Source of the DNA: Elainella saxicola E1
GTDB taxonomy: Bacteria; Cyanobacteriota; Cyanobacteriia; Elainellales; Elainellaceae
DNA length: 64,000 nucleotides
Reading direction: 5' to 3'
NCBI GenBank assembly: GCA_002796835.1
Contig: LUGL01000030.1
Coordinates: 1 to 64,000, forward strand
Positions 10,638 to 37,818 of the stretch are shown here, piece by piece. The position numbers and the translations under genes are program-made. Every line of letters starts with the position of its first letter. Positions within the stretch are counted from its first letter, which is position 1. The notes under the pieces are model-generated. The model did no database searches and was not told the DNA's origin. It saw only the letters and a list, made by a program, of their open reading frames with translations.

Positions 10638-10712
10638 GAGAGGTGTTATGGAATAGATTCAGCAATTTCAGTAATTTCAGTATCTCGGTTGGATGTCTGC
10701 GATAACGTTCGC

Positions 10713-12364: not shown

Positions 12365-12418
12365 AGGAAGTAATTAGGGATAATCGTTTGAAAAAGAACA
12401 GGATGATGAAGAGAATAA

Positions 12419-13072
12419 TTAGCGTGTGCGGATGACTTTTGCGGGAATACCGACGGCGATCGAATAAGGCGGCAAATCTTGACAAACCACAGCCCCGGCC
12501 CCCACCACGCAGCCATCCCCGATCGTTACACCACCCAACACAGTGACACCGCCACCCAGCCACACATCTTCGCCAATCACGGTTGGCAGCGGAATATCAG
12601 GCTGATCGCGGATACACCGATCGCGTTGGCAGATCGTATGATTTGAGGACAAAATCACGCAGTTCATCGCAATCAAACTATCCTTGCCAATCTTCACGCC
12701 GCCATGGCCGTAAATGATCGTATTTGGGCCTAGAAAAACATGATCTGCAATCGTAATCGAGCCGCCGTAGCTGTGCAAAATCACGCCTTTTGAGAGGGTG
12801 ACTTGATCGCCAATTTCTAAAATTCCCCATTTTCCCTGAGCCCGTCCCAGATCAAAGTCAGTAGAATTGCCAATCGTACAATTTCGGCCACACTGAATTC
12901 CCATTTGACGTAACAACCAGCGACGATAGATTTGTTTGGCGTGGAATAGCCGGTTTAGGGGGGCTGTGACCCAACGATTAGGGGAAGGAGCAACAGGTGT
13001 TGGGGAAGAGGGCTGGCTGTTGAATCTGCTGCTTAACTTGTGACTAAGCATAGACAGTGTATTGGGCATCAT
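12419..13072 (-). CDS. Left-handed beta-helix acyltransferase (WcaB/CysE-like hexapeptide family)
   Basis: A 217-residue sugar acetyltransferase candidate. Hexapeptide turns run through LEIGDQVTLSKGVILH, ITIADHVFLGPNTIIYGHGG and CVILSSNHTI, which holds the likely catalytic His, then IGEDVWLGGGVTVLGG, TIGDGCVVGAGAVVCQDL and the closing SIAVGIPAKVI. I choose the ATG at 13072 because GGAGG lies seven bases before it. A frame from 13162 is longer but lies inside the Wzt gene, and an ATG at 13051 has no ribosome site. The gene overlaps the 3' end of wzt by 29 bases, implying coupled expression with the exporter. Confidence 0.87.
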   Translation of the reverse strand: MMPNTLSMLSHKLSSRFNSQPSSPTPVAPSPNRWVTAPLNRLFHAKQIYRRWLLRQMGIQCGRNCTIGNSTDFDLGRAQGKWGILEIGDQVTLSKGVILHSYGGSITIADHVFLGPNTIIYGHGGVKIGKDSLIAMNCVILSSNHTICQRDRCIRDQPDIPLPTVIGEDVWLGGGVTVLGGVTIGDGCVVGAGAVVCQDLPPYSIAVGIPAKVIRTR

Positions 13073-15135: not shown

Positions 15136-15221
15136 TGCAGATTAGGTCACAGGTGGAGATTGAAAGATTACTTCCACCATGGCCGTTGCGACCTCGCGAT
15201 CATGTCTACGATCTGTTCAAC

Positions 15222-15250
15222 TTGGTGTTTGTCTTTGCCCCCTGTATAAC
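15222..15250 (+). promoter_or_regulatory. Candidate sigma-70-type promoter for the wza-wzc pair
   Basis: TTGGTG (15222-15227) and TATAAC (15245-15250) are separated by exactly 17 bases in the 203-base divergent region between wzm and the wza-like gene. It would drive plus-strand transcription starting near 15257, leaving a leader of about 80 bases. This is a by-eye match only. Confidence 0.4.
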
Positions 15251-15338
15251 TTTTGCAGCCTATACGGGTTTGCAAATCGTCACAAGGGAATACTGAAATT
15301 AATCGACCTTTGCACTCTCACGCACCAGATCAAGCACC

Positions 15339-20741: not shown

Positions 20742-20789
20742 GCCCAATCAGTCAGGTTGTTATCATCTAACACCACTGGTTGGGCTTTT
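20742..20789 (+). terminator. Rho-independent terminator of the subtilase gene
   Basis: GCCCAATCAGT (20742-20752) pairs with ACTGGTTGGGC (20775-20785), with a G-T pair opposite the T, and TTTT follows. The hairpin overlaps the last codons of the convergent gene that ends at 20763. Confidence 0.7.
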
Positions 20790-21485
20790 AGACATCCACC
20801 AAGATGCGATCGATCGCCATTGTTCTTCTAGGAGTTGCTCTGCAAGGGCATCATCATTTGCAATGAATTTCTGATTATTACTGGTAGTACTTCCTGAATT
20901 GATTTTCTCAGTAGGAATGGAGAGCTGTACCCATAAGCAGCGTTTGTCTAGTAGGCTATTCTGACCGATCGCCCAACCCAGGAGTCGATCAGGTTGCCAA
21001 ATGTGCTGATAAAGTTGGCTACGAAACTGAGCAGGCGTCACGAAGCTATGACCCGCTGGGCTCAAGCAGCTCTCTAGATAGACATTCCCTTGCTGGGTAA
21101 ACCGACGGTAGAAACCGATCGGAGTTTGAACATCCTGAAATTTGGGTGGGTTTGCTTTCCAGCTCAGTTGTTCTTGAATCAGTTTATGAATGTTGCCGCC
21201 TGTGTTGACTACGTCCCGTAACTCTAATTGAATTGGGATTCCACTACGAATATAGCGGTATTTTTGACCTGAAAGAATTTGATCATATTTGGGAGACTCA
21301 GCTTGCGGCAATTGGATCGGCTGAGATTCGAGCAACTGAGATTCTGGTAGCGGTAAAGCTTGCGGCAAAGGAATCGCTGTATATTGACGTTGACTCGTCG
21401 TTGGATCAAGCAGCAATTTGCCGATCGTCAGTGCAATCCCTACACAAATTCCACTCAATAGCAAGTGACGGCTTGGCGGTTTCAT
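20763..21485 (-). CDS. Cyanoexosortase A system-associated protein
   Basis: A 240-residue partner of the cyanoexosortase next to it; its molecular role is unknown. An N-terminal hydrophobic segment (HLLLSGICVGIALTIGKLLL, about 7-26) anchors it in the inner membrane with the rest outside. The soluble part has YRYIRSGIPIQLELRDVVNTGG, then TPIGFYRRFTQQGNVYLESCLSP and KRCLWVQLSI, a layout seen in the proteins that always accompany cyanoexosortases. Its ATG overlaps the stop of crtA by four bases (ATGA), so the pair is translationally coupled. Assignment rests mainly on this context and the size and anchor. Confidence 0.8.
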   Translation of the reverse strand: MKPPSRHLLLSGICVGIALTIGKLLLDPTTSQRQYTAIPLPQALPLPESQLLESQPIQLPQAESPKYDQILSGQKYRYIRSGIPIQLELRDVVNTGGNIHKLIQEQLSWKANPPKFQDVQTPIGFYRRFTQQGNVYLESCLSPAGHSFVTPAQFRSQLYQHIWQPDRLLGWAIGQNSLLDKRCLWVQLSIPTEKINSGSTTSNNQKFIANDDALAEQLLEEQWRSIASWWMSKSPTSGVR

Positions 21486-22309
21486 GAAACTTCCTCGGCA
21501 GGTGCGATCAACATCTGGCTACAAAGAGCAAAAAGGATAATGCCCAGCGTCGAAAAAATTTGGGCACCTTGTGGACCATGCCAGAATTCGAATCGATCGG
21601 GCTGGCTAACGACCAAAAGCATGATGGAGATGCGAACGCTACTTAACAAAAAGGTGATACCTCCCGCAAGCAGAAAAATATATCCCTGCTGATAAATGCT
21701 GGTAGGAAATAAGAGAATCAACAAAACAGAAAGTTGAATTAATAAGATGAAAATTGGAACTCCAGTGCAGCCATACTCTACAGTGACTGCCCGATCGTCC
21801 ATCAAAACTGCTGTCCCTTGCCGAATCACATCAACTCCAACATAATGCAGGAAAAAAGTGGTGCTCTGGGCCAGTATTGTTTGAATTGACGATCCTAACC
21901 AGGGCTCGATGATTTGAGCGGCTGTTCCACTCGGAACCATCAACGTTAAGACGATCAATCCCTCACGCCAATATTGTTTGAGACGAGGCCCAGAGGCTAA
22001 TAATCCTAGACTAAGTGCTGCGACCCCAGGAAAAAGACGCACATAGGTAGACTCAAACCAGAAGAGAGATACGCTTTTGGTCAGGACTAACCCCATTAAG
22101 ACAGTTGCAACAAGACTGGAAATCCAATCGCTGGTCAAATTTAAATCTTTCCGTCGTTGCCAGAGCAAGAAGACGATCGCACCCCAAAACAACACGTTCA
22201 GCATCATCTGATCGGTTTGTTGAGTCAATCTCCAAGTCAGAGTGAGGTGTAAAGCAATGAGACCTAAACCGATGAGACCGAGCCAGAACTGCGTTTTTTG
22301 AGTATTCAT
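21482..22309 (-). CDS. crtA: Cyanoexosortase A (PEP/PFE-CTERM processing transpeptidase)
   Basis: An inner-membrane cysteine protease/transpeptidase that cleaves C-terminal PEP-CTERM-type tails of exported proteins. The 275-residue protein has about eight hydrophobic spans and the exosortase triad: Cys181 in VEYGCTGVP, Arg226 in SSVRISIML and His244 in FEFWHGPQG. I place the start at the ATG at 22309. A longer frame from 22495 would overlap the HpsJ-like gene and begins with a non-hydrophobic stretch in the wrong place. It is the middle gene of a three-gene minus-strand operon: HpsJ-like (ends 4 bases upstream), crtA, associated protein (4-base overlap). Two candidate substrates with PFE-CTERM tails are encoded a few kb away. 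Confidence 0.92.
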   Translation of the reverse strand: MNTQKTQFWLGLIGLGLIALHLTLTWRLTQQTDQMMLNVLFWGAIVFLLWQRRKDLNLTSDWISSLVATVLMGLVLTKSVSLFWFESTYVRLFPGVAALSLGLLASGPRLKQYWREGLIVLTLMVPSGTAAQIIEPWLGSSIQTILAQSTTFFLHYVGVDVIRQGTAVLMDDRAVTVEYGCTGVPIFILLIQLSVLLILLFPTSIYQQGYIFLLAGGITFLLSSVRISIMLLVVSQPDRFEFWHGPQGAQIFSTLGIILFALCSQMLIAPAEEVS

Positions 22310-22313
22310 GATC

Positions 22314-23285
22314 TCAAATATTGCGACGGTGACTGCGATGCACAGGACGCTGCATTTTTTTGATCGCTTGATTGACGCTGCTGATGGGCGATCCGTTTGC
22401 TGCAATGGGTGGAGTTGAAGCAGATCGACGGCTGGCCGCAGCGCTGTATTTCCAAGATCTAGCATCCCTTGCCCAGCGAGTGCAGACCCAAACATAGGCG
22501 AAGATCATGCCAGCAATAAGCACTTGCAGCACCAGTTTGGCGGTGTTTTTGACCAAATTAAACCGCAAATTCGATCGCGCCTGGTTCGCCTTTTCATCCG
22601 TTTGCTGTTTTGCTTTCTGCAAGTTTTCTAAAGCTTGTTGCTTAGCTTGTTCTGTATTCTTGGGGGCATTGGGCAATTTGCCTTTGTCATCTGGAGCGGG
22701 AATCAAGCTTTGCAATTCTGCAGAAGAGGCTTTGTCGATCTGCTTTTTGGTGGTGTCAATCTGCATTTTCTGCTGGTCCACCTGAACCGTAATTTGTTCG
22801 TTGTTGAAACGGCTAATCCGAACGGAATCAAACAAGGTTAGGGGTAAGAGGAGGAAAAAGACGATCGCGATGATCAGCGTCAACCAGGACAAAAATTTGA
22901 GGATGGGTTGCTCAATTCGTTTACGAGCCTCGGTTTCACCAAAGAAAACCAGCATAAATGCCAGCAGTGGCACGGGCGCTAATTTCGCTAAATCCCCAAT
23001 CGTTTGATATTCCCAAACTGGGTTAGAAAGTTCGGGAGGTACCAGCACATAGAGTAAGTCAATGCAGGCCAACAGGATTAATCCGTACCCGATCGCTCGC
23101 ATGACTTGTAGCGTAGTCGATGAGGTGAAGCTGGCAAGCAAACTGGGTTCGGGCTTGGAATGCCTCATGTCTGGTTTTGTGGGAGATTCCGCTTCAGGAG
23201 GCGTGGATTCAGGCACCGGTGAGGTCATTTCGGCTTCTGAGTTGCCCTCTAGCGGAAAGGAGGAGTCAGGTTGAAAAGTTGTCAT
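22314..23285 (-). CDS. HpsJ-like protein of the cyanoexosortase A operon
   Basis: A 323-residue membrane protein resembling HpsJ, a protein of hormogonium polysaccharide loci. The N-terminus (1-55) is Pro/Glu/Ser-rich. Three hydrophobic spans follow (AIGYGLILLACIDLLYVLVP, LAPVPLLAFMLVFFGE, FLSWLTLIIAIVFFLLLPLT), then a long charged helix (about 165-250, rich in Lys, Gln and Ala) outside or between membranes. A last span (LVLQVLIAGMIFAYVWVCT) and a basic Ser-rich tail end it. It is the first gene of the operon with crtA, separated by four bases, which fits the cyanoexosortase A-associated type. Function is unknown; a link between exosortase and polysaccharide export is inferred from its homologues. 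Confidence 0.78.
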   Translation of the reverse strand: MTTFQPDSSFPLEGNSEAEMTSPVPESTPPEAESPTKPDMRHSKPEPSLLASFTSSTTLQVMRAIGYGLILLACIDLLYVLVPPELSNPVWEYQTIGDLAKLAPVPLLAFMLVFFGETEARKRIEQPILKFLSWLTLIIAIVFFLLLPLTLFDSVRISRFNNEQITVQVDQQKMQIDTTKKQIDKASSAELQSLIPAPDDKGKLPNAPKNTEQAKQQALENLQKAKQQTDEKANQARSNLRFNLVKNTAKLVLQVLIAGMIFAYVWVCTRWARDARSWKYSAAASRRSASTPPIAANGSPISSVNQAIKKMQRPVHRSHRRNI

Positions 23286-23639
23286 GGCGGAAATTCTTTA
23301 AGACTTTATCCAGCCTAAAAAGCAGATGTTTTCGTTCAGGCTTGTTTTACGACAGGTTTGATCAATGAGAAGTCAGACGTTACACAAACACGATCGCAAG
23401 CATTTCTTTTAAATACTAGATATATCCCGTCTCAGGAGCATTCGCAGGAGTGCTCCTCTCTCTCCATTGCATTGCTAGCGATTGGATTCTCTATCTCCTA
23501 AAACCCCCTGTGTTCCTGGTTGATAATTGCTAGCTCGATCGTTGTCTGGAAAATGGCGATCGGCAGAGCTGGAATGGGTCAAGATGCTTGGCTAGATAAA
23601 GCGACCATTGCTCAATCGCGTATAGGAAATCGATTTGTC

Positions 23640-24575
23640 ATGTCCTCTCTCCTTGACACTCAAACTAATAGTCTTTCCTCCACTGAAGTCTCTGTTGGCT
23701 ATATTGACAACTATGCTCAGAATTCTGGAACGACTTCAACCCAACTTAAAGATTTAGGCACCCAAGAAAGTGCCGATCTGCAACTTAGCCCCAGTGATAT
23801 TTGGTTAACTGCTCCTACTCAATTGGACCTGGCACCCGACTATAATCTGCTGTCAGCCACAACCACGAATAATGATGTGCTTTATCAGCCTTCAGCAGAA
23901 TTAGCGGCCCAAGGCGTGACCTATGATTCGTCGCCGACCCTTAGCGTGCTTGCTGCTTCAGGAGCTCAGGCAGATCTCAGTTTGAAGACATGGGATCAGA
24001 ACTCGGCTCCGATCCAAGGAACGTCAGTCAATTATTCAATTGCTTCAGATGGAACCTTGCAAACCACTGGACAATCGCTCAGCTCCTCAAGTTCTGGCAT
24101 TTTTGTTTCTCGCACTGGAACAGATAGTTCGCTGTATTTGGCCAACACGGGCAGTGGGACGATCAGTACACCCTTTTCGCTGACCGGTTCTGGAAGCACC
24201 TCTGATACCAGCACACAGGATAATGGCTCCTCACCTGGAACCACAACCAGTACGAATTCAGGTAACACACCAACGACAAGTACTGATACAGGGAGTACAC
24301 CAACGACAAGTACTGATACAGGGAGTACACCAACGACGAGTACTGATACTCAGCTAACTTCAAACTCAACAGCAAGTTCAACTTCGATCGATTTTGGAAG
24401 AACGACCTCTAGCAGCCTGACGACCCTATCCACTTCCAGTTCCGATCCGGTGCCTGTCCCGTTCGAAATGCATTCGACGATCGGGTTATTGATTGTCAGT
24501 TTTATCCTGGCTAAGCGGTTTTTCCATCAGCAGAAAGAAAAAAAACTGACCAGCATTTGCTACGCGAATCAATAG
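23640..24575 (+). CDS. PFE-CTERM protein 1 with Thr/Ser-rich repeats
   Basis: A predicted cyanoexosortase substrate. The C-terminus has the tripartite sorting tail: PVPVPFEMHSTIGLL (the PFE signature), a hydrophobic span IVSFILAKRFF, then basic HQQKEKK. Before it lies a Ser/Thr-rich stalk with TPTTSTDTGS repeats from a 30-base tandem repeat. The N-terminal region (TEVSVGYIDNYAQNSG) resembles the start of the second PFE-CTERM protein in the window (about SVGPIQSYIQGS), so the ATG at 23640 (311 residues) is my preferred start. In-frame codons back to TTG 23520 would add 40 residues with only a weak hydrophobic stretch. No convincing N-terminal signal peptide exists with either start, which is unusual for an exosortase target. 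Confidence 0.75.
   Translation: MSSLLDTQTNSLSSTEVSVGYIDNYAQNSGTTSTQLKDLGTQESADLQLSPSDIWLTAPTQLDLAPDYNLLSATTTNNDVLYQPSAELAAQGVTYDSSPTLSVLAASGAQADLSLKTWDQNSAPIQGTSVNYSIASDGTLQTTGQSLSSSSSGIFVSRTGTDSSLYLANTGSGTISTPFSLTGSGSTSDTSTQDNGSSPGTTTSTNSGNTPTTSTDTGSTPTTSTDTGSTPTTSTDTQLTSNSTASSTSIDFGRTTSSSLTTLSTSSSDPVPVPFEMHSTIGLLIVSFILAKRFFHQQKEKKLTSICYANQ
24267..24350 (+). repeat. 30-base coding tandem repeat
   Basis: Two perfect copies (24267-24296, 24297-24326) and a third that diverges after about 20 bases encode TPTTSTDTGS units in the stalk of the PFE-CTERM protein. There are no spacers, so this is a slippage-prone coding repeat, not CRISPR. Confidence 0.9.
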
Positions 24576-24614: not shown

Positions 24615-24653
24615 GCCCCTTGATACTGAAAATGTAGACTTCAAGGGGCTTTT
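24615..24653 (+). terminator. Rho-independent terminator after PFE-CTERM gene 1
   Basis: GCCCCTTGA (24615-24623) pairs perfectly with TCAAGGGGC (24641-24649), followed by TTTT. It separates the PFE-CTERM gene from the YdcF-family gene. Confidence 0.8.
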
Positions 24654-24759
24654 GATTGGCCTTTCAATGAATCAGTTTCTGACAATCACATCTCTGTTCC
24701 AAGCAAGTCATCAGTGTTCCAAACAAGTCACCAGTCTTTTTAGCTCCTCACCCTTAAAC

Positions 24760-25395
24760 ATGTCATTTGTCACTTCTAAACCGCTGGTTCCAAGTTCATC
24801 GGTGTATCGCAAGCAGCGCCGTTTTTTAAAGACCTTTCTAATCACTTTATTGATTATTGGCATTAGCTACATTCCTGTTCGCTTGTCTCTCGCAACTATC
24901 TTTTATCCCACCCCTCAAGGCATCCTTACGTTGGGAGGTCGAGAATCACGAGAAGAGTTTACAGCAGAATTTGCCCGATCGCATCCTAACCTCAAGGTTT
25001 GGATCTCATCCGGAGCGAAACCTGAAAAATCCCAATTATTTTTTAATGCAGCTGGTGTGGAATCTTCTAGAGTTCAGTTCGATCAGCGTGCAACTGATAC
25101 CGTCACCAATTTCACCACCCTCGTTGATGATTTTGAACGTGAAGACATTCACCATTTGTACGTCATTACATCAGACTATCATATGCCCCGTGCTCAAGCG
25201 ATCGCCACAGTTGTTTTAGGTAGCCGTGGAATTCGATTCACCCCGATTACAATTGCTTCCGGAGGGCCACCAGAATCGTCATTACGTGTTGTACGAGATA
25301 TTCTGCGGTCTTTTATGTGGCTGCTGACTAATCACACCGGAGCTGGTCTGCGTTATCACCCGTTTGTTGAGGCTTTGAACCACCATGTATCTTAA
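24760..25395 (+). CDS. YdcF/DUF218-family membrane protein
   Basis: A protein of the ElyC/SanA/YdcF superfamily, some members of which affect envelope or polysaccharide metabolism; the reaction is unknown. One N-terminal membrane span (FLKTFLITLLIIGISYIPV) precedes the DUF218 fold. There, GILTLGGRESREEF gives the nucleotide-like binding loop, WISSGAKPEKSQL and the conserved RATDTVTNFTTLVDDF follow, and HHLYVITSDYHMPRAQAIA carries the TSDYHMPRA signature. I start at the ATG at 24760. ATG 24667 and TTG 24652 are upstream, but that stretch reads like non-coding repeat and overlaps the preceding terminator. Its 3' end overlaps the acetyltransferase gene by 11 bases. Confidence 0.8.
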   Translation: MSFVTSKPLVPSSSVYRKQRRFLKTFLITLLIIGISYIPVRLSLATIFYPTPQGILTLGGRESREEFTAEFARSHPNLKVWISSGAKPEKSQLFFNAAGVESSRVQFDQRATDTVTNFTTLVDDFEREDIHHLYVITSDYHMPRAQAIATVVLGSRGIRFTPITIASGGPPESSLRVVRDILRSFMWLLTNHTGAGLRYHPFVEALNHHVS

Positions 25396-25993
25396 TCACT
25401 ATACAATTGGCACCTACAGTCCAGGCGCACCTTACTGGCAGCAGCTCCTCTGGTATTTCTTGGGTTCCCCCCTGGTTCAGTCCTATTGGTTGCCCTGGTC
25501 CGCTCTGAAAGTTTGGATTTTGCGCAGATTTGGAGCAACGATCGGTCAACAAGTGCGGATTAAGCCCGGTGTTCGCGTTAAATTTCCCTGGCGACTGACT
25601 GTAGGTGATTTTGTTTGGATTGGCGAAAATGCTTGGCTCGATAATCTAGTCCCAATCCACTTAGATAGTCATGTGTGTGTTTCCCAAGATGTCTATCTCT
25701 GTACTGGCAACCATGACTGGCAAGATTCTAACTTTCAACTCTGTCCAGCGCCGATTCATGTTCAGGAGGGCAGTTGGATCGCAGCTCGGAGTACGATCGG
25801 TCCTGGTGTCACAGTTGGTCGGGGTGCAGTCCTGGGGTTGGGGAGTGTGACTGGGCGATCGCTCTCGCCGATGACTATCTATGTCGGCAATCCGGCCCAA
25901 CCTGTGAGGGCTAGAGTAATGCACTACGAAGAAAAGCAAGCTGCAACGGACAACCAGCAATTCTCTGATGCAACGTTGTCTACAGCCCGCTAA
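25385..25993 (+). CDS. WcaF-like polysaccharide acetyltransferase
   Basis: A 202-residue hexapeptide acetyltransferase of the WcaF (colanic-acid acetyltransferase) type that likely acetylates a sugar of an exopolysaccharide. The family N-terminus is clear: SPGAPYWQQLLWYFLGSPLV, then LKVWILRRFGATIGQQVRIKP, a feature of WcaF enzymes. Beta-helix coils follow, with CVSQDVYLCTGNHDWQD (catalytic His in GNHDW), GSWIAARSTIGPGVTVG, AVLGLGSVTGRSL and the closing IYVGNPAQPVRAR. It overlaps the YdcF gene by 11 bases and lies between two PFE-CTERM genes, linking sorting and polysaccharide functions. It is the third acyltransferase of this fold in the window. Confidence 0.9.
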   Translation: MYLNHYTIGTYSPGAPYWQQLLWYFLGSPLVQSYWLPWSALKVWILRRFGATIGQQVRIKPGVRVKFPWRLTVGDFVWIGENAWLDNLVPIHLDSHVCVSQDVYLCTGNHDWQDSNFQLCPAPIHVQEGSWIAARSTIGPGVTVGRGAVLGLGSVTGRSLSPMTIYVGNPAQPVRARVMHYEEKQAATDNQQFSDATLSTAR

Positions 25994-26028: not shown

Positions 26029-26895
26029 ATGGCAGCTTCAACTGATCTCAGCAACATTTCATCTGCGACTTCTATTTCCGTAGGGCCAATCCAGAGCTAT
26101 ATTCAAGGCTCAACCTGGTTTGATCTAACGAAATATAAAAATCTGGGTTCTCAAGAGCGGGTTTCGATCGACTTAAAATCCAGCAACCTCTGGATGATTG
26201 ACAGTAGCCAACTCTATTTGCCTTACTCTTATGCCCCCCGTGTGGCCTTTATCAATGAAGGTGCAGGCTACCAATCTCCGATCAAAATCTCGGCAACTGG
26301 AGGAACTACTGCTCAGGCGACTGTCTTTAAGAACCTCTCTGGTTCTAACAGCATTCTGCCCAGTGCTGATGGACCGCTGAAATTGGGAGATTGGGTGCAG
26401 CTCTCCATGATTCAAGCCAACACCCAGCTCAATTTTTCCGTGACGCCAAACGGAGTTTTTCAGCCCAACAATCGCCCTCTCAGCACAGATCCCAGTCTGA
26501 ATCCGGTCAGTTCTTATAATCCGAATAGCCCTGTCTTCTGGGCTGCCTATGCTGACCCGAAAGCGACTCGTCCGATCATTCTCCTCGGCTATGAAGATAT
26601 TGCTGGGAAAGGTAGTGATAATGATTTCAATGATGGCATTTTGGCCGTTGATCTAGGTACCGAGAATTTTACGTCAATTTTTACATCAGCAAATCTGGGC
26701 CAAAATGCCAAAATCAATTTAAAGACTGCCCAAACCGTTCCGGTTCCCTTTGAGTTGCATTCATCTCTAGGGTTATTGTTAGCAATCTTTATTGTTGGGC
26801 GTCGTTTTTTGCAGCGTCGTTTTCTGCAGCCTGTTCAAGCTGTTGCTGAAATGCCTTCATCTACTTATCCATCACCAAAGTTGATCGCTGATTAG
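26029..26895 (+). CDS. PFE-CTERM protein 2 with DUF4114-like region
   Basis: A 288-residue predicted cyanoexosortase substrate. The C-terminus carries TVPVPFELHSSLGLL, the hydrophobic span LAIFIVGRRF and a basic tail (LQRRFLQ). Upstream, IILLGYEDIAGKGSDNDFNDGILAVDL has the G-ED...G-DND-ND pattern of DUF4114-type calcium-binding-like domains found in cyanobacterial surface proteins. The start at ATG 26029 is firm: an in-frame TAA lies just upstream and AAGGA precedes it. It begins MAASTDLSNISSATSISVG with no signal peptide, as in the other PFE-CTERM protein. The two differ in the middle, so they are related only at their ends. Confidence 0.82.
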   Translation: MAASTDLSNISSATSISVGPIQSYIQGSTWFDLTKYKNLGSQERVSIDLKSSNLWMIDSSQLYLPYSYAPRVAFINEGAGYQSPIKISATGGTTAQATVFKNLSGSNSILPSADGPLKLGDWVQLSMIQANTQLNFSVTPNGVFQPNNRPLSTDPSLNPVSSYNPNSPVFWAAYADPKATRPIILLGYEDIAGKGSDNDFNDGILAVDLGTENFTSIFTSANLGQNAKINLKTAQTVPVPFELHSSLGLLLAIFIVGRRFLQRRFLQPVQAVAEMPSSTYPSPKLIAD

Positions 26896-27232: not shown

Positions 27233-27350
27233 TCCTGCCCGAACGATGAAATCTATATCTAGTAGGCAAACATTTAAGTCTATTTAACCGCGAATCAAGT
27301 ATTCGTAGCTCCACCCAATCCCCTTATTGTTCATATTCCCTCAGGTAATC

Positions 27351-29921
27351 ATGCTGAGATTCCTACAACGTCTTTTCTTTGCCTCTGCATCTGACAATTC
27401 TCGGACTATCGATCGCCATCAGCCCCAGGCGAGATTGGCAGAAGTCCAGCTTTCGATCGTCACACAATTCTATCCACCTGACTTTGCTGCAACGGGTCAA
27501 TTTGTCGATGAACTGGCCCAACAGCTTTCTCAACAAGGCATGGATGTCCAGGTCTTTACAGGACAGCCCAGCTATGCCTTCGAAACGGAAACGGCTCCTG
27601 AAGTGGAAAAAATGGGCAATGTTTGGGTGCGGCGATCGAACTTTCTCCGTTCTGGATCCCGCAAATGGGCAGGTCGTACGGTCAGCAGTTTAGCATTCTG
27701 CGGTCATGCGCTGCTGCATCTCCTCCAGCGTCAACATCGGGGCGATATTCTACTGTTTACCAGTGAGCCGCCTTTTCTTCAGGTGATTGGATTAGTTCTC
27801 CATTTTCTATTCAAAATTCCCTATGCAACCTTGGTTTACGATCTATATCCTGAAGTGGCCGTTGAACTTAACGTTGTTTCTCACAATCATTGGTTAGTGA
27901 AGTTTTGGGATGCGGTGAATCGACGGGTATGGCAGCAGGCCGTTTCGATTATTGTCCCCTGCGAAACCATGAAGGATCGGATTGTGCTGAAAGTTCCAGA
28001 AGTGGCGGACAAAATTACGGTAATTCATAACTGGGCCGATCCCACCTGGATTAAACCCCTAGTGAAACATCAAAATGAATTTGCCCAGACGTATGATTTA
28101 ACAGATAAGTTTACGGTACTTTACTCTGGAAATATGGGCCGCTGTCATGACATGAATACGGTTCTGGGAGCAGCGGTAGAATTGCAAGATGAACCCGTGC
28201 AGTTCTTATTTATTGGGGGCGGTCCCAAGCGCGCCGAATGCCAACAAAAAATTCAAGAACTGGGTTTGCAGAACTGTCTGTTTCTACCTTATCAAGACAA
28301 AAAACTGTTACCTCAGTCTCTCACGGCTTGCGATCTGTCATTGGTGAGCGTGGATGTTGGCATGGAGGGATTGGTGGCTCCCAGTAAATTTTACTCTGCC
28401 CTCTCGGCGGGTCGTCCGGTTGCGGTAATTTGCGAAAAGCATTCCTATCTGAGGGGCCTGGTGGCTGAAGCAAACTGTGGTGCGGCCATCAGCAATGGGG
28501 ATAGCAAAGGCTTAGCTGGATTCATTCGCTATTTGGCCAAGGATCAAGATATGGCCAATCGCCTCGGCCAGTCCGGTTACCGCTACATTCAGGAATATTA
28601 CACGCCTCAATTGATCGGTCAGCAATATTTTCGAATTCTGCGCCGAGCGGTGATCCAAAATGCGGATCTCTACAATGCTATGGAGCAGGAAGAGTTTCAA
28701 ATTTATTATCAACCGATCGCATCTTTAGGAAATTCCAAAATCCTGGGCTTTGAAGCATTAGTTCACTGGCAACATCCGGTGCGAGGTTTGCTGGCTCCCG
28801 CCGAGTTTTTGTCAGCCGCCGCCGAAATTGGCATTATTATTCCGTTGGGCTGGTGGATGTTGCAACAATCCTGCCGTCAGTTGCGCATCTGGCAGGATAA
28901 GACTGGATCTAACCATTTGAGAATGTATCTGTATCTGACCAGTCAGCAGTTCTTCCATCCAGATTTGATTCCCCAAATCGATCAGGCTCTGACCGATCAT
29001 CAGCTCGATAGCAGCAATCTGGTGATTGAAATTGAGGATCAGGTGATCATGGCTGATGCGGCAGCAACAACTGCCATTCTGTTGCAACTTCAAAGCCGTA
29101 ACATTCGTGTCTGCATTAACAACTTTGGGGCCAGCTATCTAACACTAGATTATCTGCATCGATTTCCCGTAGGTGCGCTCAAAGTCGATCAGTCTCTAGT
29201 CAGCCGGATTGATATTGACCCTGAAATCGTCAAATTTATTGAGACGATCGTGATTTTGGCGCGAGATTTAGGGATGGAGGCGATCGCTCAGGGGGTGGAT
29301 TCTCCGGATCAGCTACGTCGGATGCGGGAGATTGGTTTAGGCTATGGGCAAGGATTGGTATTCACAGGACCTGCTTCCGTTGAAACTGCTAATACCCTGT
29401 TAGATCAACAACAACATTCTAAATTTACCAACGTCATGGAAACCGCTACTGTTCTTGCTCAATCCCCGCTGCCGCTAGAAACGTCTGAATCTGCAGCTCC
29501 GTTAGTGCTGGTAGTCGATGACGATCGCTCCATGCGAGCCCTCTTAAAAGGCGTGATTACCAAGGAAGGCTACCGTGTTGTAGAGGCTAGCAATGGACAA
29601 CAGGCAATTAAGATGTTTCAACAATTCCAGCCAGACCTGGTGTTGCTAGATGCTTTGATGCCAGAAATGGATGGATTTACCTGCTGCCGTGCGTTACGCG
29701 ATCTCAGGGTAAGCTTACCTTCTGAAGTCACTTCCAGTGATATCTCTGTAACAGCTACCGCACAGCACAGTCTGCCCATTCTAATGATCACGGCCCTGGA
29801 AGATCCAGAATCGGTCGATAAGGCGTTTGCTGCAGGGGCAACAGATTATGTAACCAAACCCATTAACTGGGCTGTTCTCCGTCAGCGTCTCCATCAATTT
29901 CTGAAATCCAACAGGGCTTGA
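27351..29921 (+). CDS. Fusion protein: GT4 glycosyltransferase + degenerate EAL domain + response-regulator receiver
   Basis: An 856-residue three-part protein. Residues about 32-432 form a WcaI/WbuB-like GT4 glycosyltransferase (SIVTQFYPPDFAATGQF, VLYSGNMGRCHDMNTVLGAA, LVAPSKFYSALSAGRPVAVI). About 440-685 form an EAL domain with the FEAL motif (468-470) but changed catalytic positions: the DDFG metal-binding pair is NNFG (590-591), VNLS is LYLT, and AEGVE is AQGVD (Gln647). Lys611 and the QG near 668 remain. It probably binds or senses c-di-GMP, or only scaffolds, rather than hydrolysing it. About 718-852 is a receiver with acidic pair DDD, phospho-acceptor Asp767 (LLDALMP) and Lys836 (TKP), so it looks functional. 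I start at the ATG at 27351 (AGG upstream); a TTG at 27327 is in frame. The PAS gene follows after one base. Confidence 0.9.
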   Translation: MLRFLQRLFFASASDNSRTIDRHQPQARLAEVQLSIVTQFYPPDFAATGQFVDELAQQLSQQGMDVQVFTGQPSYAFETETAPEVEKMGNVWVRRSNFLRSGSRKWAGRTVSSLAFCGHALLHLLQRQHRGDILLFTSEPPFLQVIGLVLHFLFKIPYATLVYDLYPEVAVELNVVSHNHWLVKFWDAVNRRVWQQAVSIIVPCETMKDRIVLKVPEVADKITVIHNWADPTWIKPLVKHQNEFAQTYDLTDKFTVLYSGNMGRCHDMNTVLGAAVELQDEPVQFLFIGGGPKRAECQQKIQELGLQNCLFLPYQDKKLLPQSLTACDLSLVSVDVGMEGLVAPSKFYSALSAGRPVAVICEKHSYLRGLVAEANCGAAISNGDSKGLAGFIRYLAKDQDMANRLGQSGYRYIQEYYTPQLIGQQYFRILRRAVIQNADLYNAMEQEEFQIYYQPIASLGNSKILGFEALVHWQHPVRGLLAPAEFLSAAAEIGIIIPLGWWMLQQSCRQLRIWQDKTGSNHLRMYLYLTSQQFFHPDLIPQIDQALTDHQLDSSNLVIEIEDQVIMADAAATTAILLQLQSRNIRVCINNFGASYLTLDYLHRFPVGALKVDQSLVSRIDIDPEIVKFIETIVILARDLGMEAIAQGVDSPDQLRRMREIGLGYGQGLVFTGPASVETANTLLDQQQHSKFTNVMETATVLAQSPLPLETSESAAPLVLVVDDDRSMRALLKGVITKEGYRVVEASNGQQAIKMFQQFQPDLVLLDALMPEMDGFTCCRALRDLRVSLPSEVTSSDISVTATAQHSLPILMITALEDPESVDKAFAAGATDYVTKPINWAVLRQRLHQFLKSNRA

Positions 29922-29922
29922 A

Positions 29923-30342
29923 ATGAAAACACTTGCAGCCTTAAAGCAACAAATGGATGTGCCTGTCGTAATTGCCAACCAACAGGGGTTCATTATCTAT
30001 ATCAATGACTGTTTTACGGCAACGTTAGGCTGGACAGCAGATGAGATATTAGGAAAACTACTCACCACAATTCTGCCCTATAGCTTTCATGACTGCCATA
30101 ACTTAGCGTTTGCACGCTTTCAAGCGACTGAGCAATCAAATGTACTCAACCACCCCATTCGGTTATCAACCATTACAAAGAACCAAAAGGCGATCGAAAC
30201 TGAGCATTTTATCGTGGCCGAAAAGCTCGAAGATCAATGGTTTTTTGGGGCGACGCTCCGTCCGCTCAATCAAGATCAAATGAGCCAAGATCAAGTTAGT
30301 CAAGATCAAGTTAGCCAAGATCAAACTATTTCTAGTGAATGA
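29923..30342 (+). CDS. Stand-alone PAS-domain protein
   Basis: A 139-residue protein consisting of one PAS domain (about 5-110: [45 protein letters not shown]), then a repetitive hydrophilic tail with four DQ(M/V)SQDQ-type units. No output domain is present. It starts one base after the fusion gene stop and overlaps the hybrid kinase gene by eight bases, so all three are translated together. It may supply an extra sensory input to the kinase or the fusion protein. A ligand cannot be predicted. Confidence 0.83.
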
Positions 30343-33300
30343 TCTCCGTCCTATGTCACCCGATTTAAATGCTTTAGTGAGTCAACTCCGCATGACGCTA
30401 GGCAAGATGGAAGTTGCGCTGGATGCGGTTGAAAATGCGATCGTCTGGACCGATCAGGCAGGTAATATCCAGTGGTGTAATGCTCTGTTTCAGTCTTTAG
30501 TCGAACGTTCCAGGCTGCTGCTAGTCGGTCACTTTTTGCCAAAATGCTTGCCGCTAGAGCGATCGGGAAAACCTGTTTCAGTTGAAAGACATCCTGTAAT
30601 GCTTGCTCTGACACAAGCTGATAAAGGGAGTGGTTTTTATGAATTTCAACAAGGGGAAAGTCAGTGTATTCTAGAAATTTCCTGGGCCTCGACCCAGTTT
30701 GAACAAGGTAACAGAAGTGCAGTTCTTGCCATTCGAAATGTCACATCTCGTAGACGAGCAGAAGTAGAGCTCCAGAAATATCGCCATCAGCTAGAACTTT
30801 TAGTGGATGAACGGACGGCTGAGTTGATGGCAACCAATCATCAACTGCAGCTGGAGATGTCGGAACGTCAACTCGTTGATCAAGCCCTGCGTCATAGCGA
30901 AGAACGTTTTCGATTGCTGATTGAGAACGTCAAAGATTATGGTATTTATTTGCTCGATCCTGAGGGTTACATTGCCAGCTGGAATGTTGGAGCCCAGCGC
31001 ATTACTTCGTTCTCAGCAGATGAGATTATTGGCCGGCACTTTTCTTGCTTCTTTCTGCCTGAGGATGTCGATCAGCAAATTCCTGAACGAGTTCTTGAAG
31101 TTGCCAAAATGACCGGACGCTATGAAGGCGAAGGATGGCGGCTGGGTAAAGATGGTACGCGCATGTGGATGAATGTGGTGATTACCACTCTAAGAAATGA
31201 CCAGGGGGAAATTCAGGGATTTTCCAACATTATTCGTGATATTACGCAGCAAAAAGAGGCTGAAGCTGCCCTCCATCAGCAGATTGAGAAAGAGCAGTTA
31301 ATGCGAACTATTATCGATCGCATGCGGCAATCACTCGATCTAAGTGAAATTCTGCAAACAACGGTTGATGAGGTGAGAGGGTTCCTGAAGACCGATCGCG
31401 TTTTGATCTATCGCCTGAATCCAGAAGACTGGAGTGGGGTGATTTCAGTTGAATCGGTCGGTCAAGAATGGCTATCAACGCTCAATCAAGTCATTCATGA
31501 TAACTGCTTTGGAAAAATCTATGCACCGCTCTATCAACAGGGTTGGGTGAACTTTACCCCCAATATTGCCAATTCTAAGTTGAGTCCTTGTTATGTTGAT
31601 TTTTTATCTAAGCTACAGGTTGTAAGCTGCTTAACCGTCCCCATTTTGCAAGGAGAAAATCTCTGGGGGCTGTTAATTGCGCATCACTGTAGCCAACCCC
31701 GCATTTGGACGACGTCTGAGATCAACTTTTTGCAACAGTTGGCAGCCCAAATGGCGATCGCTGTGCAGCAGTCAGAACTCTATCGGCAAGTGCAGCAAGA
31801 ATTAGCCGAACGAGAACGGATTGCCCAGGAGCTTTGGGAAAGCGAAACTGCAATTCGCATGTTGTATAACATCACTTCGTCACGCCAACACAATTTCGAG
31901 GCAGCAATCCAGGAATTACTCGCGTTTGGCCGACACCAGTTTCAGACTGAGATGGGTTGCTTGACGCATGTGGACGGAGAGGATGCTCATATTCTTGCCT
32001 CTCAAGGGATAGCTGATGAACGCTTGATCGATCGGTCTTTTCCCTTAGATCAAAGCTTTTGCGGCGTGACGGTACAGCAGCAGCAACCCGTTTGCATTTT
32101 ATCCGCCCACCAATCGGAATGGTGCGATCATCCTGGGCATACCCAATTCAAAATCGAGTCTTATTTGGGAACTCCGATCTGGGTGGGTGGACGAATTTAT
32201 GGAACGCTGAGTTTTGCGAGCGGCGTGGCGCGCCAGAATGCGTTCAAAGCCCTCGACCAAGAACTTCTCAGGCTGATGGCCCGTTGGATTGGCAATGAGA
32301 TTGAGCGACAGCAAGCCTCTGAGGAACTGGCAACGGCTCGTGATGAAGCACTGGCTGCCACCCGCGCTAAAAGCGAATTTTTAGCCACGATGAGCCACGA
32401 GATTCGCACACCCATGAATGCGATCATTGGCATGACGGGGCTCTTGCTGAATACACAACTCACGCCAGAACAGCAGGATTTTGTGAAGACGATCCGCTAC
32501 GGAGGCGATTCACTACTATCTATTATTAACGATATTTTAGATTTCTCGAAGATTGAATCGGGTAAGTTAGAACTAGAGATACAAGCTTTTGTCTTGCGGA
32601 ACTGCACTGAGCAAGTTCTAGATTTAATTGCGAATCAAGTTGCTGAAAAGCATCTCAAGCTAATCTATCAAGTCGATGATCGGGTGCCTCAAGCGATCTT
32701 GGGCGACATGGCTCGCTTACGCCAGGTGTTGGTGAATTTGCTCAGCAATGCCGTTAAATTTACAGCCCAGGGAGAGATCGAAGTCAAGGTGTCTAATCGA
32801 GTTTTATCTGAAAAGAGGTTAGGTGAGGCTGGAACAGATGCATATCACGAGATCCGGTTTGTGGTACGAGATACAGGCATTGGAATCTCTGCTGAGCAGA
32901 TAGAGCGATTGTTCCAGCCCTTTAGCCAAATCGATTCTTCGATTACTCGTAAATATGGCGGCACTGGTTTGGGCTTAGTGATTTGCAAACAACTCGTAGA
33001 AATGATGGGAGGTCAAATTGGGGTGGACAGCGAAATTGGTAAAGGCACAACATTTTGGTTTACGATCGTTGCTCCCACCGCTCCAGAGGGGATGCCGATC
33101 GAAGAAAACGCTCATTTTCATCAGTCTTCTCATCAGAAACTGTCAACCCTAGATGTCCCAGCATCACCTGTCGCAGCGCCCGTTCTGGATCGGACATTGG
33201 CAGAAAAACATCCACTGCAAATTTTGATTGCCGAAGATAATCGGATTAACCAGAAATTGACGCTCCAGCTCTTACAGCGTTTGGGATATCGGGCAGATGT

Positions 33301-34087
33301 TGTAGCCAATGGCCTCGAGGCTTTAGCGGCTTTGCATCAGCAATCCTATGACGTGATTTTAATGGACATCCATATGCCGGAAATGGATGGATTGACGGCA
33401 ACTCAGGAAATTTGTCGAATTTGGCCTCTTGATCAGCGCCCTCAGATCATTGCACTTACAGCAAGTGCCGTTCTGGGCGATCGAGAAAACTGTCTTGCTG
33501 CTGGAATGGATGCTTATATCAGTAAACCGTTCAAGATTGAGGAACTGGTGAAGACCTTGCAACAATGCAAGTCTTGGCATCGCCGAGAGGACGAGCATCT
33601 ATCTGAGCCGCATCAACCGGATCAGGGAATTCATGCTGTAGGGGATGATGGATCCGGTAGCGCCACAAAAGCTTCGCCAAACGCCTGTACGCCCCAGCCC
33701 GCTCTGATCGAACCAGCGATCGATCTTGCTGTCCTAGAAGAACTGATCACGGTTCTCGGTGAAAATGGCTGGGAAATTCTCGCAGAGAGCATCAATTCTT
33801 ATCTGGAAGATGCACCCCTGTCGATTCAAGCGATCGTCCATGCCGTAGAAACGGCCAATGCAGGTAGTTTGAAGCAGGCAGCTCATATGCTCAAGGGGAT
33901 TAGTGCGTCACTAGGAGCCAAACCGTTCGCAGACCTTTGCCAAAAGCTCGAAAGTATGGGTGCTGCGCAGCAGATTGAAGCGGCTTCCCAGTTCTTACCG
34001 CAGCTTACTGCAGAATATCAGCGAGTACAGGCTGCTTTAACAGAACAACGACAGCAATTCAGGGTTGCCGTCCTGCATGGAGGCTGA
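30335..34087 (+). CDS. Hybrid histidine kinase: PAS-PAS-GAF(cyanobacteriochrome-like)-GAF-HisKA-HATPase-REC-HPt
   Basis: A 1250-residue cytosolic phosphorelay kinase with no membrane span and a GTG start. Order: PAS (about 26-135), PAS/PAC (187-303), GAF1 (337-480), GAF2 (505-655), HisKA with His688 ([12 protein letters not shown]), HATPase (N-box [27 protein letters not shown]), REC with Asp1011 (VILMDIHMP), HPt with His1184 (AAHMLKGIS). GAF1 carries HDNCF (Cys391) and SPCYVDFL (Cys419), 28 residues apart. This matches the DXCF motif and canonical bilin Cys of DXCF cyanobacteriochromes, together with [16 protein letters not shown], so it could attach a bilin and sense light. The canonical Cys is followed by Tyr rather than the commoner His. 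All four phosphorelay residues are present. Likely targets are the receiver on the glycosyltransferase fusion and the lone receiver next door. Confidence 0.9.
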
Positions 34088-34568
34088 GTTTTTCTAGATC
34101 TTGTTGAACGATCGCCAACTGTTGGGTTAAGGTAGCCACCTGCTGTTTGGCATAGGAGAGTTCAGCCATTACCCAACGGTTCTGCAAAATGCGTTGGACT
34201 CGCTGACGCAACACAGCCCAATGGATAGGTTTTGTCACAAAATCGATCGCACCCACGGCAAACGCTCGATCGACCGATTTGGAATCTGACAGCGCAGTGG
34301 TGATCAGGATGGGGGGACAGCGATCGCCAAACTGTTGATGGAGCGCTTCACAACAGGTAAACCCGTCCATCGTGGGCATGATGGCATCCAACAGGATCAA
34401 ATCGGGCAGTTCTTGCTGACAAACCGCTAAACAAGCCTCACCGTTGGCAGCCTCCAGCACCCGATGCCCTTCGTTCGCCATGGCATGGGAGAGTAGCAAT
34501 CTCAAATTCGGCTCATCTTCAACGATTAAAATAGTCGCTGGAGCGGTTTGTTCATCCAACTGACTCAT
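34059..34568 (-). CDS. Single-domain response regulator with C-terminal helix
   Basis: A 169-residue receiver protein: [15 protein letters not shown] (acidic pair), phospho-acceptor Asp in [14 protein letters not shown] (about residue 61), Thr in LITTALS and Lys in [15 protein letters not shown], then a C-terminal amphipathic helix ([21 protein letters not shown]) without a DNA-binding or enzymatic output. It is clearly paralogous to the receiver on the GT4-EAL fusion (both have MDGFTCC-AL, a SVD-AFA-GA-D-VTKPI-WAVLRQR block). It runs opposite to the hybrid kinase, and their 3' ends overlap by 29 bases, which is unusual and could allow antisense control. It probably takes part in the same phosphorelay. 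Confidence 0.9.
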
Positions 34569-35292
34569 GGGGCTGTTCCTTCACTCGTCATAACATTTCT
34601 CTCGAATGGCTTGATCGATCGGAAATGCGTTGCGAAACTTAACGATTTAGAAATCCATTATTGCGAATTAATACACTAAAGTTGATATCCGCTTGAGATC
34701 TCGCTTCGTTTCTGGGGTACATTATAATCGAATCCAGCAGATTCAGTTCTTTGAGGCACTGACTCCATGGAACCTCAATTGCATGAAGCTGCTGAGGATC
34801 CTAATTCATCGTGTTGTCGAGAACTGGGATTGTTCAGACGATTTGGCTCCAACCTCTTATCTTGGTTTAATCATGAGGTGAGCTGAGCGAAATCCTTTGG
34901 TCGTCTACCGATATTTCCAAGCTTCAACATCTACCGTTTCTTTCAATATCTACCAGATTGAGTTCGTCACGCCTGTTGCGTAATTGGGGTGTGAGATCGG
35001 GCTGATTGCCGATTTTCAAGGCGAATCACCTTATCAGCAACTAACGAATCAGCCAAATCTGTCATCAGGGTTTTTACGAAATTTGCTGGGCTGTCAGTCA
35101 AATGACTGCTCCAGCTAATGCATGCAATTGCTAGTTCATAGGCCAATCAGCAATGTTGGTCAGAACGTTGTCGTGATTTACGTAGGATTACGCAATTGAA
35201 AAAGTGATTCATTCATCTGTGAAAAAATTCCGGATTTCTTACAGAACTTGACGATAACAGTTATAGAACCATAGGTTGGGGTGACGTGAATT
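34569..35292. other. Large intergenic region with a possible small ORF
   Basis: These 724 bases have no convincing conserved gene. TATAAT at 34723-34728 is a good -10 box but lacks a well-spaced -35. About 40 bases after it, a 39-codon frame (34767-34886, ATG to TGA) encodes a short protein with CCRELGLFRRFGSNLLSWF, preceded by GAGG 11 bases upstream. It could be a small gene or an untranslated RNA. The rest, including the AT-rich upstream region of the NACHT gene, shows nothing I can name. Confidence 0.3.
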
Positions 35293-37818
35293 ATGGCTAA
35301 ACGATCGCTGAAAGCATCTACGGCGGGTATTCAAAGGGCAAAACAAGCTTTTGAACGACGGGCTTGGACCCAAGAATACCTGGCCAGTGCGGTGGGTTTG
35401 CAGACTCGCCAATCGATCTGGAAGTTTTTTTCAGGCCGACCGATCGAGCGCCATTTGTTCATTGATATTTGTTTTCAGCTGGATCTGGACTGGGAAGAAA
35501 TTGCAGACCTGCCTCGATTTGAACCGATCGTCTCTGAGTCAACCCCTCAACCAGATGCGGCAACTGCTTCCCCGGACAATTCGACAATTCTGGCGGAGCA
35601 GCAAACTTGGCTAGAGCAGGTGCGATCGCAGGTTGCTAGCCTGATTCAGAACCAGTGTGGTGTCGTTCCAGCCGCTTTGGATTTAGAACAACCCCTGCCG
35701 CTTTCCCAAATCTACACAGATGTCAATTTGTTGGAACATCTATCGAGCCACCGCTGGTTAGAATTGGCCGATTTGCAAAATGCGACGAATGATAGCCCGA
35801 CGCATTCCAGCTTGTTAGATGGGGCTCCTTCCAGAGATCATTTTCAGTCAGGCCAACAGCAAAGAACGGTCATTCCAGCCCTGGAAGCGATCCAGCACTA
35901 CAACAAGTTAGCGATTTTTGGCAAACCAGGGGCAGGCAAGACCACCTTTCTACAGCATTTAGCTTTACTTTGTAGTCAGTCCCAACTTCATCACGCTTAT
36001 ATTCCCATTTTCATTCCCTTACGCAATATCGAATTTCAGCCCCTGCAAGATGCGTCCCATTTAATGGATGCGATCGCTAAACAATGGCAGAGTTTGGGGG
36101 TTTCGTTGGATCGGTTAGAAACCTTGCTGCAACAGGGCAATCTGTTGATTCTCCTAGATGGCTTCGACGAAGTCGCCCAAAGTCACCGAGGAGAACTTCA
36201 CCTTCAGATCCAGCAGTTGGCAGCCGCCTATCCGCACACACCAATGGTGATGACCTGCCGCCTTGGCATTGAGGATTATCATTTCCGAGGTTTTACCTTG
36301 ATGGAAATGGCAGACTTTGGCTGGCCGCAAATTGAAATGTTTGTCCAGAAATGGTTTGCTTCCCAATATTCAACGGCTGCGGACTTAGCCCAAGAAAAAG
36401 CCAAACAGTTTTTAGAGCAGCTCCAGCTCCATCATCATCAGCCGATTCGAGAGCTGGCTGGTACGCCGATATTGCTGCACTTGCTTTGCCTTGTCTTCAC
36501 TGAGCGTGGTACTTTCCCGAAAAAACGATCGCGCCTTTATCAAAACGGACTGGATATTTTGCTGTCTCGTTGGGATAATGCCAGAGGAATTCAGCGAGAT
36601 TTAGTCTACAGTAACTTATCTTTATCCGATCGTATTAACATTCTTAGCCAAATTGCGACAACATTCTTTGAACAAGGCAAGCAATTTTTTGAGAAGAATG
36701 AAGCAATTCCCATCATCATGGATTATCTGGCGGCGTTGCCCAATAGCAGTGTTGATCCCGAAACCCTCTGGCTGCAAAGTGAAGAAGTGCTGCGAGCGAT
36801 CGTGCTGCACCATGGTTTGTTTGTGGAACAGGCCCGCGACATCTATTCTTTTTCCCACCTAACGTTCCAAGAATACTTAACAGCCCGCAAAATTTTTACC
36901 AGTGCGATTACGCGTAATGCGGCCCTGAAGACGGTAACTTCGATCGCTACCAATTTGTTTGTGCCGCCGATTCATCCTCTGCAACACTTGGCGGCGCGGG
37001 TGCTGGATATTCGCTGGCGTGAGGTGATCGCGCTGACGGTTGAGCTGTTGCCCAATGCAGATAGCTTGTTACAGCTGATGCAGCAGCGGATTGATGGCTG
37101 GATCTCAGACTATAGCTCGCTGCAAGATTTCTTCTGTTGGTTAGAGGGTCAAGCTGAAACGATCGCTCACCTCTATAAACCCGCTGCGGCCCGCGCCTTT
37201 TACTTCTCGCTGGTGCAAAATTACGGTTTCGATCTGGCCTTTGCCTGCGATTCTGAACTGGCACTGGATGTCACGCCAGAATTGGCTTTGGATCTGGAAC
37301 TGATGCGCATTCTGCACCAGGCAAAAAATTTCTTGGCAACCCCCACCTTGCAACAAGGGTTCAACCTCTGCTTTGCCCTGGACCTGAATCCGCGATTTGA
37401 ATTAGAGCCTTGCTTCGGCCAATGTCTGCATGAACTGAGCAAACAGTTAATCTCGGTTGTTCATAGCCAGGAGGCGTTAGAAAACTGGTGTGGTCACCAG
37501 GGGGAACATTGGGTGGAACAGTTGCGTTCTGTGTTGGTCGAATACCGCAATATTGGCCATGATTGGCAGTTCAACGCGGCTCAACAAGCTACGCTGAGTC
37601 AGTTCTATCAAGCCACATTATTTTTGGTGAGATGCTATCAGGGGGCCTCCCAAGTCTCTGTGCCGACTCGCCTAAGTTTGGAAGAGCGGCTGTTGCGCAT
37701 CTCGGCCCCTGTAGCGGCTCATGGTGGAGAAGTCAGCCATCCTGCTTTTCTACCAGGACGCGATCGTCCAGCAGTTGCCAAGAAATCCGTCTCTAACATG
37801 ACTTCTGGTTGTGCCTGA
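35293..37818 (+). CDS. NACHT-domain NTPase with N-terminal HTH-like region (NLR-like)
   Basis: An 841-residue STAND-type ATPase. The N-terminus (about 8-75: ASTAGIQRAKQAFERRAWTQ, YLASAVGLQTRQSIWKFFSG) looks like a small helix-turn-helix or effector-like module found on many cyanobacterial NACHT proteins. The NACHT core has Walker A FGKPGAGKTTFL (Lys216), Walker B NLLILLDGFDEVA (about 280-292), a sensor-like MVMTCRLG, GTPILLHLLC and FSHLTFQEYLTA, then a helical C-terminal half (about 560-841) without recognisable repeats. Bacterial NACHT proteins are often phage-defence sensors or signalling ATPases; which applies here is not known. It has its own upstream region and no obvious operon partner. 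Confidence 0.88.
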   Translation: MAKRSLKASTAGIQRAKQAFERRAWTQEYLASAVGLQTRQSIWKFFSGRPIERHLFIDICFQLDLDWEEIADLPRFEPIVSESTPQPDAATASPDNSTILAEQQTWLEQVRSQVASLIQNQCGVVPAALDLEQPLPLSQIYTDVNLLEHLSSHRWLELADLQNATNDSPTHSSLLDGAPSRDHFQSGQQQRTVIPALEAIQHYNKLAIFGKPGAGKTTFLQHLALLCSQSQLHHAYIPIFIPLRNIEFQPLQDASHLMDAIAKQWQSLGVSLDRLETLLQQGNLLILLDGFDEVAQSHRGELHLQIQQLAAAYPHTPMVMTCRLGIEDYHFRGFTLMEMADFGWPQIEMFVQKWFASQYSTAADLAQEKAKQFLEQLQLHHHQPIRELAGTPILLHLLCLVFTERGTFPKKRSRLYQNGLDILLSRWDNARGIQRDLVYSNLSLSDRINILSQIATTFFEQGKQFFEKNEAIPIIMDYLAALPNSSVDPETLWLQSEEVLRAIVLHHGLFVEQARDIYSFSHLTFQEYLTARKIFTSAITRNAALKTVTSIATNLFVPPIHPLQHLAARVLDIRWREVIALTVELLPNADSLLQLMQQRIDGWISDYSSLQDFFCWLEGQAETIAHLYKPAAARAFYFSLVQNYGFDLAFACDSELALDVTPELALDLELMRILHQAKNFLATPTLQQGFNLCFALDLNPRFELEPCFGQCLHELSKQLISVVHSQEALENWCGHQGEHWVEQLRSVLVEYRNIGHDWQFNAAQQATLSQFYQATLFLVRCYQGASQVSVPTRLSLEERLLRISAPVAAHGGEVSHPAFLPGRDRPAVAKKSVSNMTSGCA

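Follow-up and report, generated by a model that had tools for sequence, protein, structure and literature searches.

A conserved GT4 glycosyltransferase, degenerate EAL and receiver fusion in cyanobacterial exosortase and polysaccharide loci

Known systems and the fusion family

Control of exopolysaccharide by two-component systems and c-di-GMP has mostly been described as acting via transcription factors or via PilZ/synthase complexes. In the PilZ-controlled cellulose synthase BcsA a signalling domain and a glycosyltransferase (GT) share one chain, as in the protein described here, but there PilZ and c-di-GMP are combined with a GT2 enzyme and not a GT4 domain with a degenerate EAL domain and a receiver (REC). 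The fusion of a receiver directly to a glycosyltransferase has an archaeal precedent in REC-GT2 proteins such as MTH_548, which differ in being of the GT2 cellulose-synthase type with no EAL domain mentioned, and which have been reported from no more than three genera, all in a single methanogen family (PMC5847659). FimX and LapD have an EAL fold with a broken catalytic site, FimX together with a receiver, but no glycosyltransferase in the same chain (PMC3527489, PMC3032553). It is also known that the Xss system controls polysaccharide (synechan) production in Synechocystis sp. PCC 6803, where deletion of xssS leads to more polysaccharide and production depends on both xssR and xssQ (PMC8205485).

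The stretch of DNA analyzed here, hereafter the window, comprises 64,000 nucleotides of an Elainella saxicola E1 contig. Its forward strand carries at 27351-29921 a gene of 856 codons in one frame with no internal stops, while the antisense strand is rich in stops and has no comparable frame. An alternative start, TTG, lies upstream at 27327, and no obvious ribosome-binding site precedes either candidate start. Pfam models place the N-terminal half of a GT4 enzyme at residues 49-228 and the C-terminal half at 251-411 (about 1e-13 each), an EAL domain at 439-672 (4e-57) and a receiver (Response_reg) at 719-847 (1.7e-27), which confirms the initial annotation of three domains joined in one frame without interruption. 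The GT4 domain as a whole spans 27441-28640 (residues ~31-430). Its class assignment follows from Pfam scores that exceed the gathering cut-off for each of the two Rossmann-like halves and from a profile match to solved GT4-type enzymes. The proposed likeness to WcaI/WbuB stands only in a loose sense: WcaI models score far under their curated cut-offs, and a WcaI (colanic acid) equivalog or orthologue is ruled out by TIGR04007 (71 bits against a cut-off of 800) and likewise fails NF007640 (130 bits against a curated cut-off of 276). The motifs PPDxAATGQ, SGNxGRCHD and ExLxAPSKxY are invariant or nearly so across fused and stand-alone relatives, and the signature residues of the fused enzymes are the same as in the stand-alone ones. 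Stand-alone cyanobacterial GT4 relatives (e.g. C100 of the window genome, 53-54%) share with the fusion the GT subfamily and these motifs, but they are mostly ~435-475 aa long, carry neither EAL nor REC and form a separate clade.

The GT4-EAL-REC architecture was found in 16 of the 390 sampled genomes of the class, the window genome (G000) included, and these belong to five cyanobacterial families; G015, G026, G110, G187, G200, G284 and G333, mentioned below, are among the relatives with the fusion. Family-level searches gave no fusions beyond the 16, two further matches in the homologue search being stand-alone GTs, and the wider distribution of the family is patchy. Since the same fusion is present at full length in 15 other genomes, a joint produced by assembly error or frameshift, which would have undone the original interpretation, is excluded. 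Against 31 stand-alone GT4 relatives the fused GT domains form one clade (100/99, and in 100% of bootstrap trees), and so do the fused EAL domains (support 100/100); with each domain forming a single clade, this is most simply explained by one ancient fusion. The protein thus belongs to a conserved family of single origin, found in cyanobacterial exosortase/polysaccharide loci and more general than first thought. Among the best 5000 matches in plasmid records none covered at least 80% of the fusion protein. What looked like a GT-EAL fusion on a plasmid of Ochrobactrum (tblastn match H3) proved to be a 474-codon stand-alone GT frame whose alignment overruns by chance, and a scan of named genomes returned stand-alone GTs and one receiver only. 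No description of the architecture was found in the open-licence full-text literature. One locus (L093, G333) shows at 10118-13708 an exosortase-like domain, recognized by eye, in frame before GT-EAL-REC in a frame of 1196 codons, which is either a four-part protein or the result of a lost stop codon.

Gene neighbours

The fusion gene is followed after 1 bp (29921|29923) by a gene for a PAS protein (29923-30342, forward strand), which shares 45% identity with the PAS protein encoded next to the XssS-type kinase gene of the Synechocystis plasmid pSYSM. The kinase gene of the window (30335-34087, forward) starts 8 bp before the end of the PAS gene and encodes an XssS-like hybrid histidine kinase of the order PAS-GAF-GAF-HisKA-HATPase-REC-Hpt. 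Next to it lie genes for an XssR-like stand-alone response regulator (34059-34568, reverse), whose receiver is 50% identical to the fused receiver, and for an XssQ-like STAND (NACHT) protein (35293-37818, forward), so that homologues of XssS, XssR and XssQ adjoin one another within genes 29923-37818. The pSYSM genes were equated with XssS, XssR and XssQ by position and domain content, and identity to these counterparts is 45% for the PAS protein, ~43% for the kinase core, 45% for the receiver and 39% for the STAND protein, the last being Synechocystis XssQ. The same four homologues stand beside polysaccharide genes in Synechocystis (PMC8205485), but the XssR-type receiver of the pSYSM region is, unlike that in the window, not fused to a GT, and no annotated GT in that region is described with EAL or REC.

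In the receiver tree the fused receivers group with XssR receivers with moderate support (93/93), one other genome receiver falling inside the group, and within the tested set Synechocystis XssR is matched best by fusion receivers (up to 58%). The suggestion that the kinase encoded at 30335 is the partner of the fusion is plausible, because this kinase is an XssS homologue encoded by the third gene of a tight run and the receiver type cognate to it, XssR, is probably the one that was fused. An XssS-type kinase adjoins the fusion in four of the 16 genomes (G000, G015, G026 and G284, from both main groups), and G200 has XssQ/XssR-like genes beside it. In half of the fusion genomes (8/16) no close XssS homologue was found at the threshold used, and XssQ-like proteins, a widespread family, occur in all 16. 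The pairing of fusion and kinase thus appears good for the window and is unproven in the other genomes. The initial annotation also held that signals could act on the enzyme by bypassing a transcription factor. This is weakened by the XssR- and XssQ-like genes next door (34059 and 35293), as a result of which control of the fusion would be a parallel branch and not a bypass.

On its other side the fusion gene is directly preceded by a gene for a secreted PFE-CTERM (DUF4114) protein (26029-26895, forward), and 14 of the 16 genomes have a relative of this protein next to the fusion, one of these relatives being frame-shifted. Further upstream are a WcaF-family polysaccharide acetyltransferase (25385-25993, forward; 7/16 loci), a DUF218 protein (24652-25395, forward; 11/16) and, on the reverse strand, an HpsJ-like protein associated with cyanoexosortase A (22314-23285; 9/16), cyanoexosortase A itself (21482-22495; 9/16) and a cyanoexosortase A system-associated protein (20763-21485; 5/16). 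Wzc-type proteins are present in six of the 16 fusion loci. These counts come from 10-20 kb read per locus, and a missing neighbour is consequently not proof of absence. All four parts of the cyanoexosortase A system score over their cut-offs: CrtA with 161 against 150 bits, the associated protein with 136 against 100, HpsJ-like A with 252 against 140 and PFE-CTERM with 24.9 against 24. Four cyanoexosortase A-type matches occur in the genome (C184, C120, C52 and C159), and the one in the window is a divergent low scorer, with its 161 bits close to the 150-bit cut-off. The DUF218 and acetyltransferase genes are flanked by two PFE-CTERM-type proteins, the first of which (23520-24575) is rich in Thr and Ser with imperfect repeats and scores slightly below the family cut-off. 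At the beginning of the window, 25-1529 resembles by eye the end of a transposase and, after it, a fragment of a group II intron reverse transcriptase.

The EAL domain, the receiver and their joints

The residues originally named in the fusion protein were all correctly read, that is FEAL (E468), NNFG for DDFG (590-593), Tyr528, Gln647 and the phospho-acceptor Asp767. Alignment to the solved EAL domain of TBD1265 (2r6o) adds R472H just behind the EAL motif, E563D in loop 6 and E650D at the second Glu of EGVE to N528Y, D590N, D591N and E647Q in the degenerate EAL domain (28665-29366). From the catalytic residues (E, N, E, D-D, K and E of GxE) the window protein departs at Y528, N590, N591 and Q647, and a missing EGVE catalytic base has served as the criterion for an inactive EAL (PMC12900916). 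Of the other EAL domains of this genome that were checked, 14 of 14 have all of E, R, N, E, D, D, K, E, E and Q, and none of the 16 fused ones does, which strengthens the view that the window EAL is unlikely to hydrolyse c-di-GMP and leaves no close homologue with an intact site. Judged by these residues, the EAL domain is non-catalytic across the whole family. Five fusions (G110, G187, G015, G284 and G026) have lost Lys611 and Asp591 and kept the EGVE Glu, and the other 11, window included, have lost the Glu and kept the Lys; as different residues are lost in these two sister clades, at least two separate losses of catalysis took place. Among the 16, decay has gone furthest in the window copy. 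The loop-6 consensus is also lost in the fused EALs (positions 594, 595 and 597), a feature shared with LapD, for which a non-consensus loop 6 was noted (PMC3032553). In its EAL fold and dead site the window protein resembles, by sequence, the degenerate EALs of FimX and LapD.

The receiver (29505-29891) has an acidic pair (D723/D724), Asp767, Thr814 and Lys836 in place, and these positions are intact in 15 of the 16 fused receivers. The window receiver has a lengthened loop before residue 810, and across the fusions the receiver carries a loop of variable length. The remaining receiver, in the fusion at 1550-4060 of L095 (G110), carries Glu at the phospho-acceptor position and an Asn within the acidic pair, and is possibly a locked-on form.

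The two joints of the protein differ. The GT-EAL junction (28611-28713, residues 421-454), where the last GT helix runs into the first EAL helix, is exactly 34 residues long in all 16 fusions, and the linker between EAL and receiver (29367-29504, residues 673-718 in the window) varies from 47 to 83 residues. The C-terminal helix of GT-B enzymes returns to the N-terminal half, which puts a domain fixed rigidly to this helix in a good position to affect opening and closing, and the EAL domain could act on the GT in this way. Structure prediction of the fusion from four sequences gave a poor model (mean pLDDT 44.5, pTM 0.30), and the geometry of the junction is for this reason read from sequence alone.

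A phosphorylation switch and its alternatives

Our best explanation, favored tentatively, is that the fusion may be an exopolysaccharide glycosyltransferase with its own phosphorylation switch, controlled by an XssS-type kinase through the receiver and the pseudo-EAL. The protein would act as part of a Wza/Wzc exopolysaccharide locus, where its GT4 domain, to judge from family and locus, would add one sugar in the assembly of the polysaccharide repeat unit. The C-terminal GT helix would continue without slack into the dead EAL, a rigid regulatory and probably dimerising module, and the receiver would hang on a loose linker, its Asp767 being phosphorylated or dephosphorylated by the XssS-type kinase of the same gene run. 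The phosphorylation state of the receiver would change the packing of the EAL and thereby the activity of the GT, with the XssR/XssQ transcriptional branch of the kinase running in parallel. This explanation is supported by the shared architecture, unchanged GT signature, dead EAL, intact receiver, constant junction and Xss neighbours; against it count the local XssS-type kinase in only four of 16 genomes and the eight without a close homologue, as well as the acceptor Glu of G110 and the moderate support of the receiver tree. We infer the kinase pairing, the direction of control, the allosteric step and the sugar. The most far-reaching form of this idea would be an undescribed class of directly signal-gated cyanobacterial glycosyltransferases, in which one XssS-type kinase drives both XssR-XssQ transcription and the catalytic rate of a GT that captured an XssR-derived receiver, with the pseudo-EAL, still binding c-di-GMP in some lineages, as allosteric joint; taken as a whole it is rather doubtful.

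Alternatively, the dead EAL could still bind c-di-GMP as in FimX and LapD, so that c-di-GMP and phosphorylation together gate the GT. FimX itself combines a receiver with a degenerate EAL, and contacts c-di-GMP via Arg479, Glu654 and other residues (PMC3527489). The equivalent Arg is kept in 13 of the 16 fusions, G015, G284 and G026 keep both this Arg and the EGVE Glu, and the EAL fold is strongly conserved, with eight residues invariant (Q454, E468, W473, P476, F486, G593, G648 and G668). However, the EAL is the least conserved domain (mean pairwise identity across the 16 fusions 50%, against 66% for the GT and 58% for the REC), and the window copy has, in a further difference from FimX and LapD, replaced both ligand contacts (R472H and E647Q) in addition to N528Y and D590N/D591N. 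Binding by the window copy, first proposed as plausible, is with these contacts lost doubtful, and c-di-GMP control appears unlikely for this copy and possible in some relatives; as an account of the fusion, dual input seems to us unlikely.

It is still less probable that REC and EAL serve as a scaffold or address tag that brings the GT to the kinase or to an exosortase/polysaccharide complex with catalysis unchanged. The conserved neighbours (exosortase, HpsJ and PFE-CTERM) are in accordance with such a role, as is the receiver of FimX, thought to serve polar localisation (PMC3527489), but the invariant length of the GT-EAL junction suggests more than a tether and the phosphorylation residues are conserved. 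Residues D544, D569, R583 and C588 are invariant in all 16 fused EALs, though not in the other EALs of the genome; they are candidate sites of a fusion-specific contact and could form a partner surface. It is very improbable that the fusion is a relic, with an EAL in decay since an early joining event, a receiver that is vestigial or serves as a phosphate sink, and a constitutive GT. The lost catalytic residues do differ by lineage and the window copy has the most losses, but a full-length EAL of near-constant length (body of 214-216 aa) in 16/16 fusions and an intact receiver in 15/16, across five families, argue for selection.

If the favored phosphorylation switch holds, the receiver carried by the GT4 enzyme would place slime or biofilm polysaccharide under kinase control after translation, and the neighbouring sensor kinase could tune the enzyme itself and not the gene alone. 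The family would then also be a clear example of an EAL fold that lost catalysis, at least twice, and took on a mechanical role. New here are the constant length of the GT-EAL junction, the grouping of the receiver with XssR and the PAS-XssS-XssR-XssQ homologues downstream in a cyanoexosortase A/PFE-CTERM locus, which ties the Xss regulators to this little-studied system.

As to the transcriptional branch, no XssQ-type AAGTTNNAC box precedes the fusion gene, and the window holds nine sites of this box against 6.5 expected. The consensus (PMC8205485) occurs twice on the reverse strand, at 15215-15223 and 15244-15252, 29 bp apart, and such a close same-strand pair should be rare (estimated at ~0.01 per window). 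The pair sits in the gap between two divergent genes, an ABC-transporter gene (5' end at 15135, reverse) and a wza-like gene (15339, forward), and is a possible target of XssQ.
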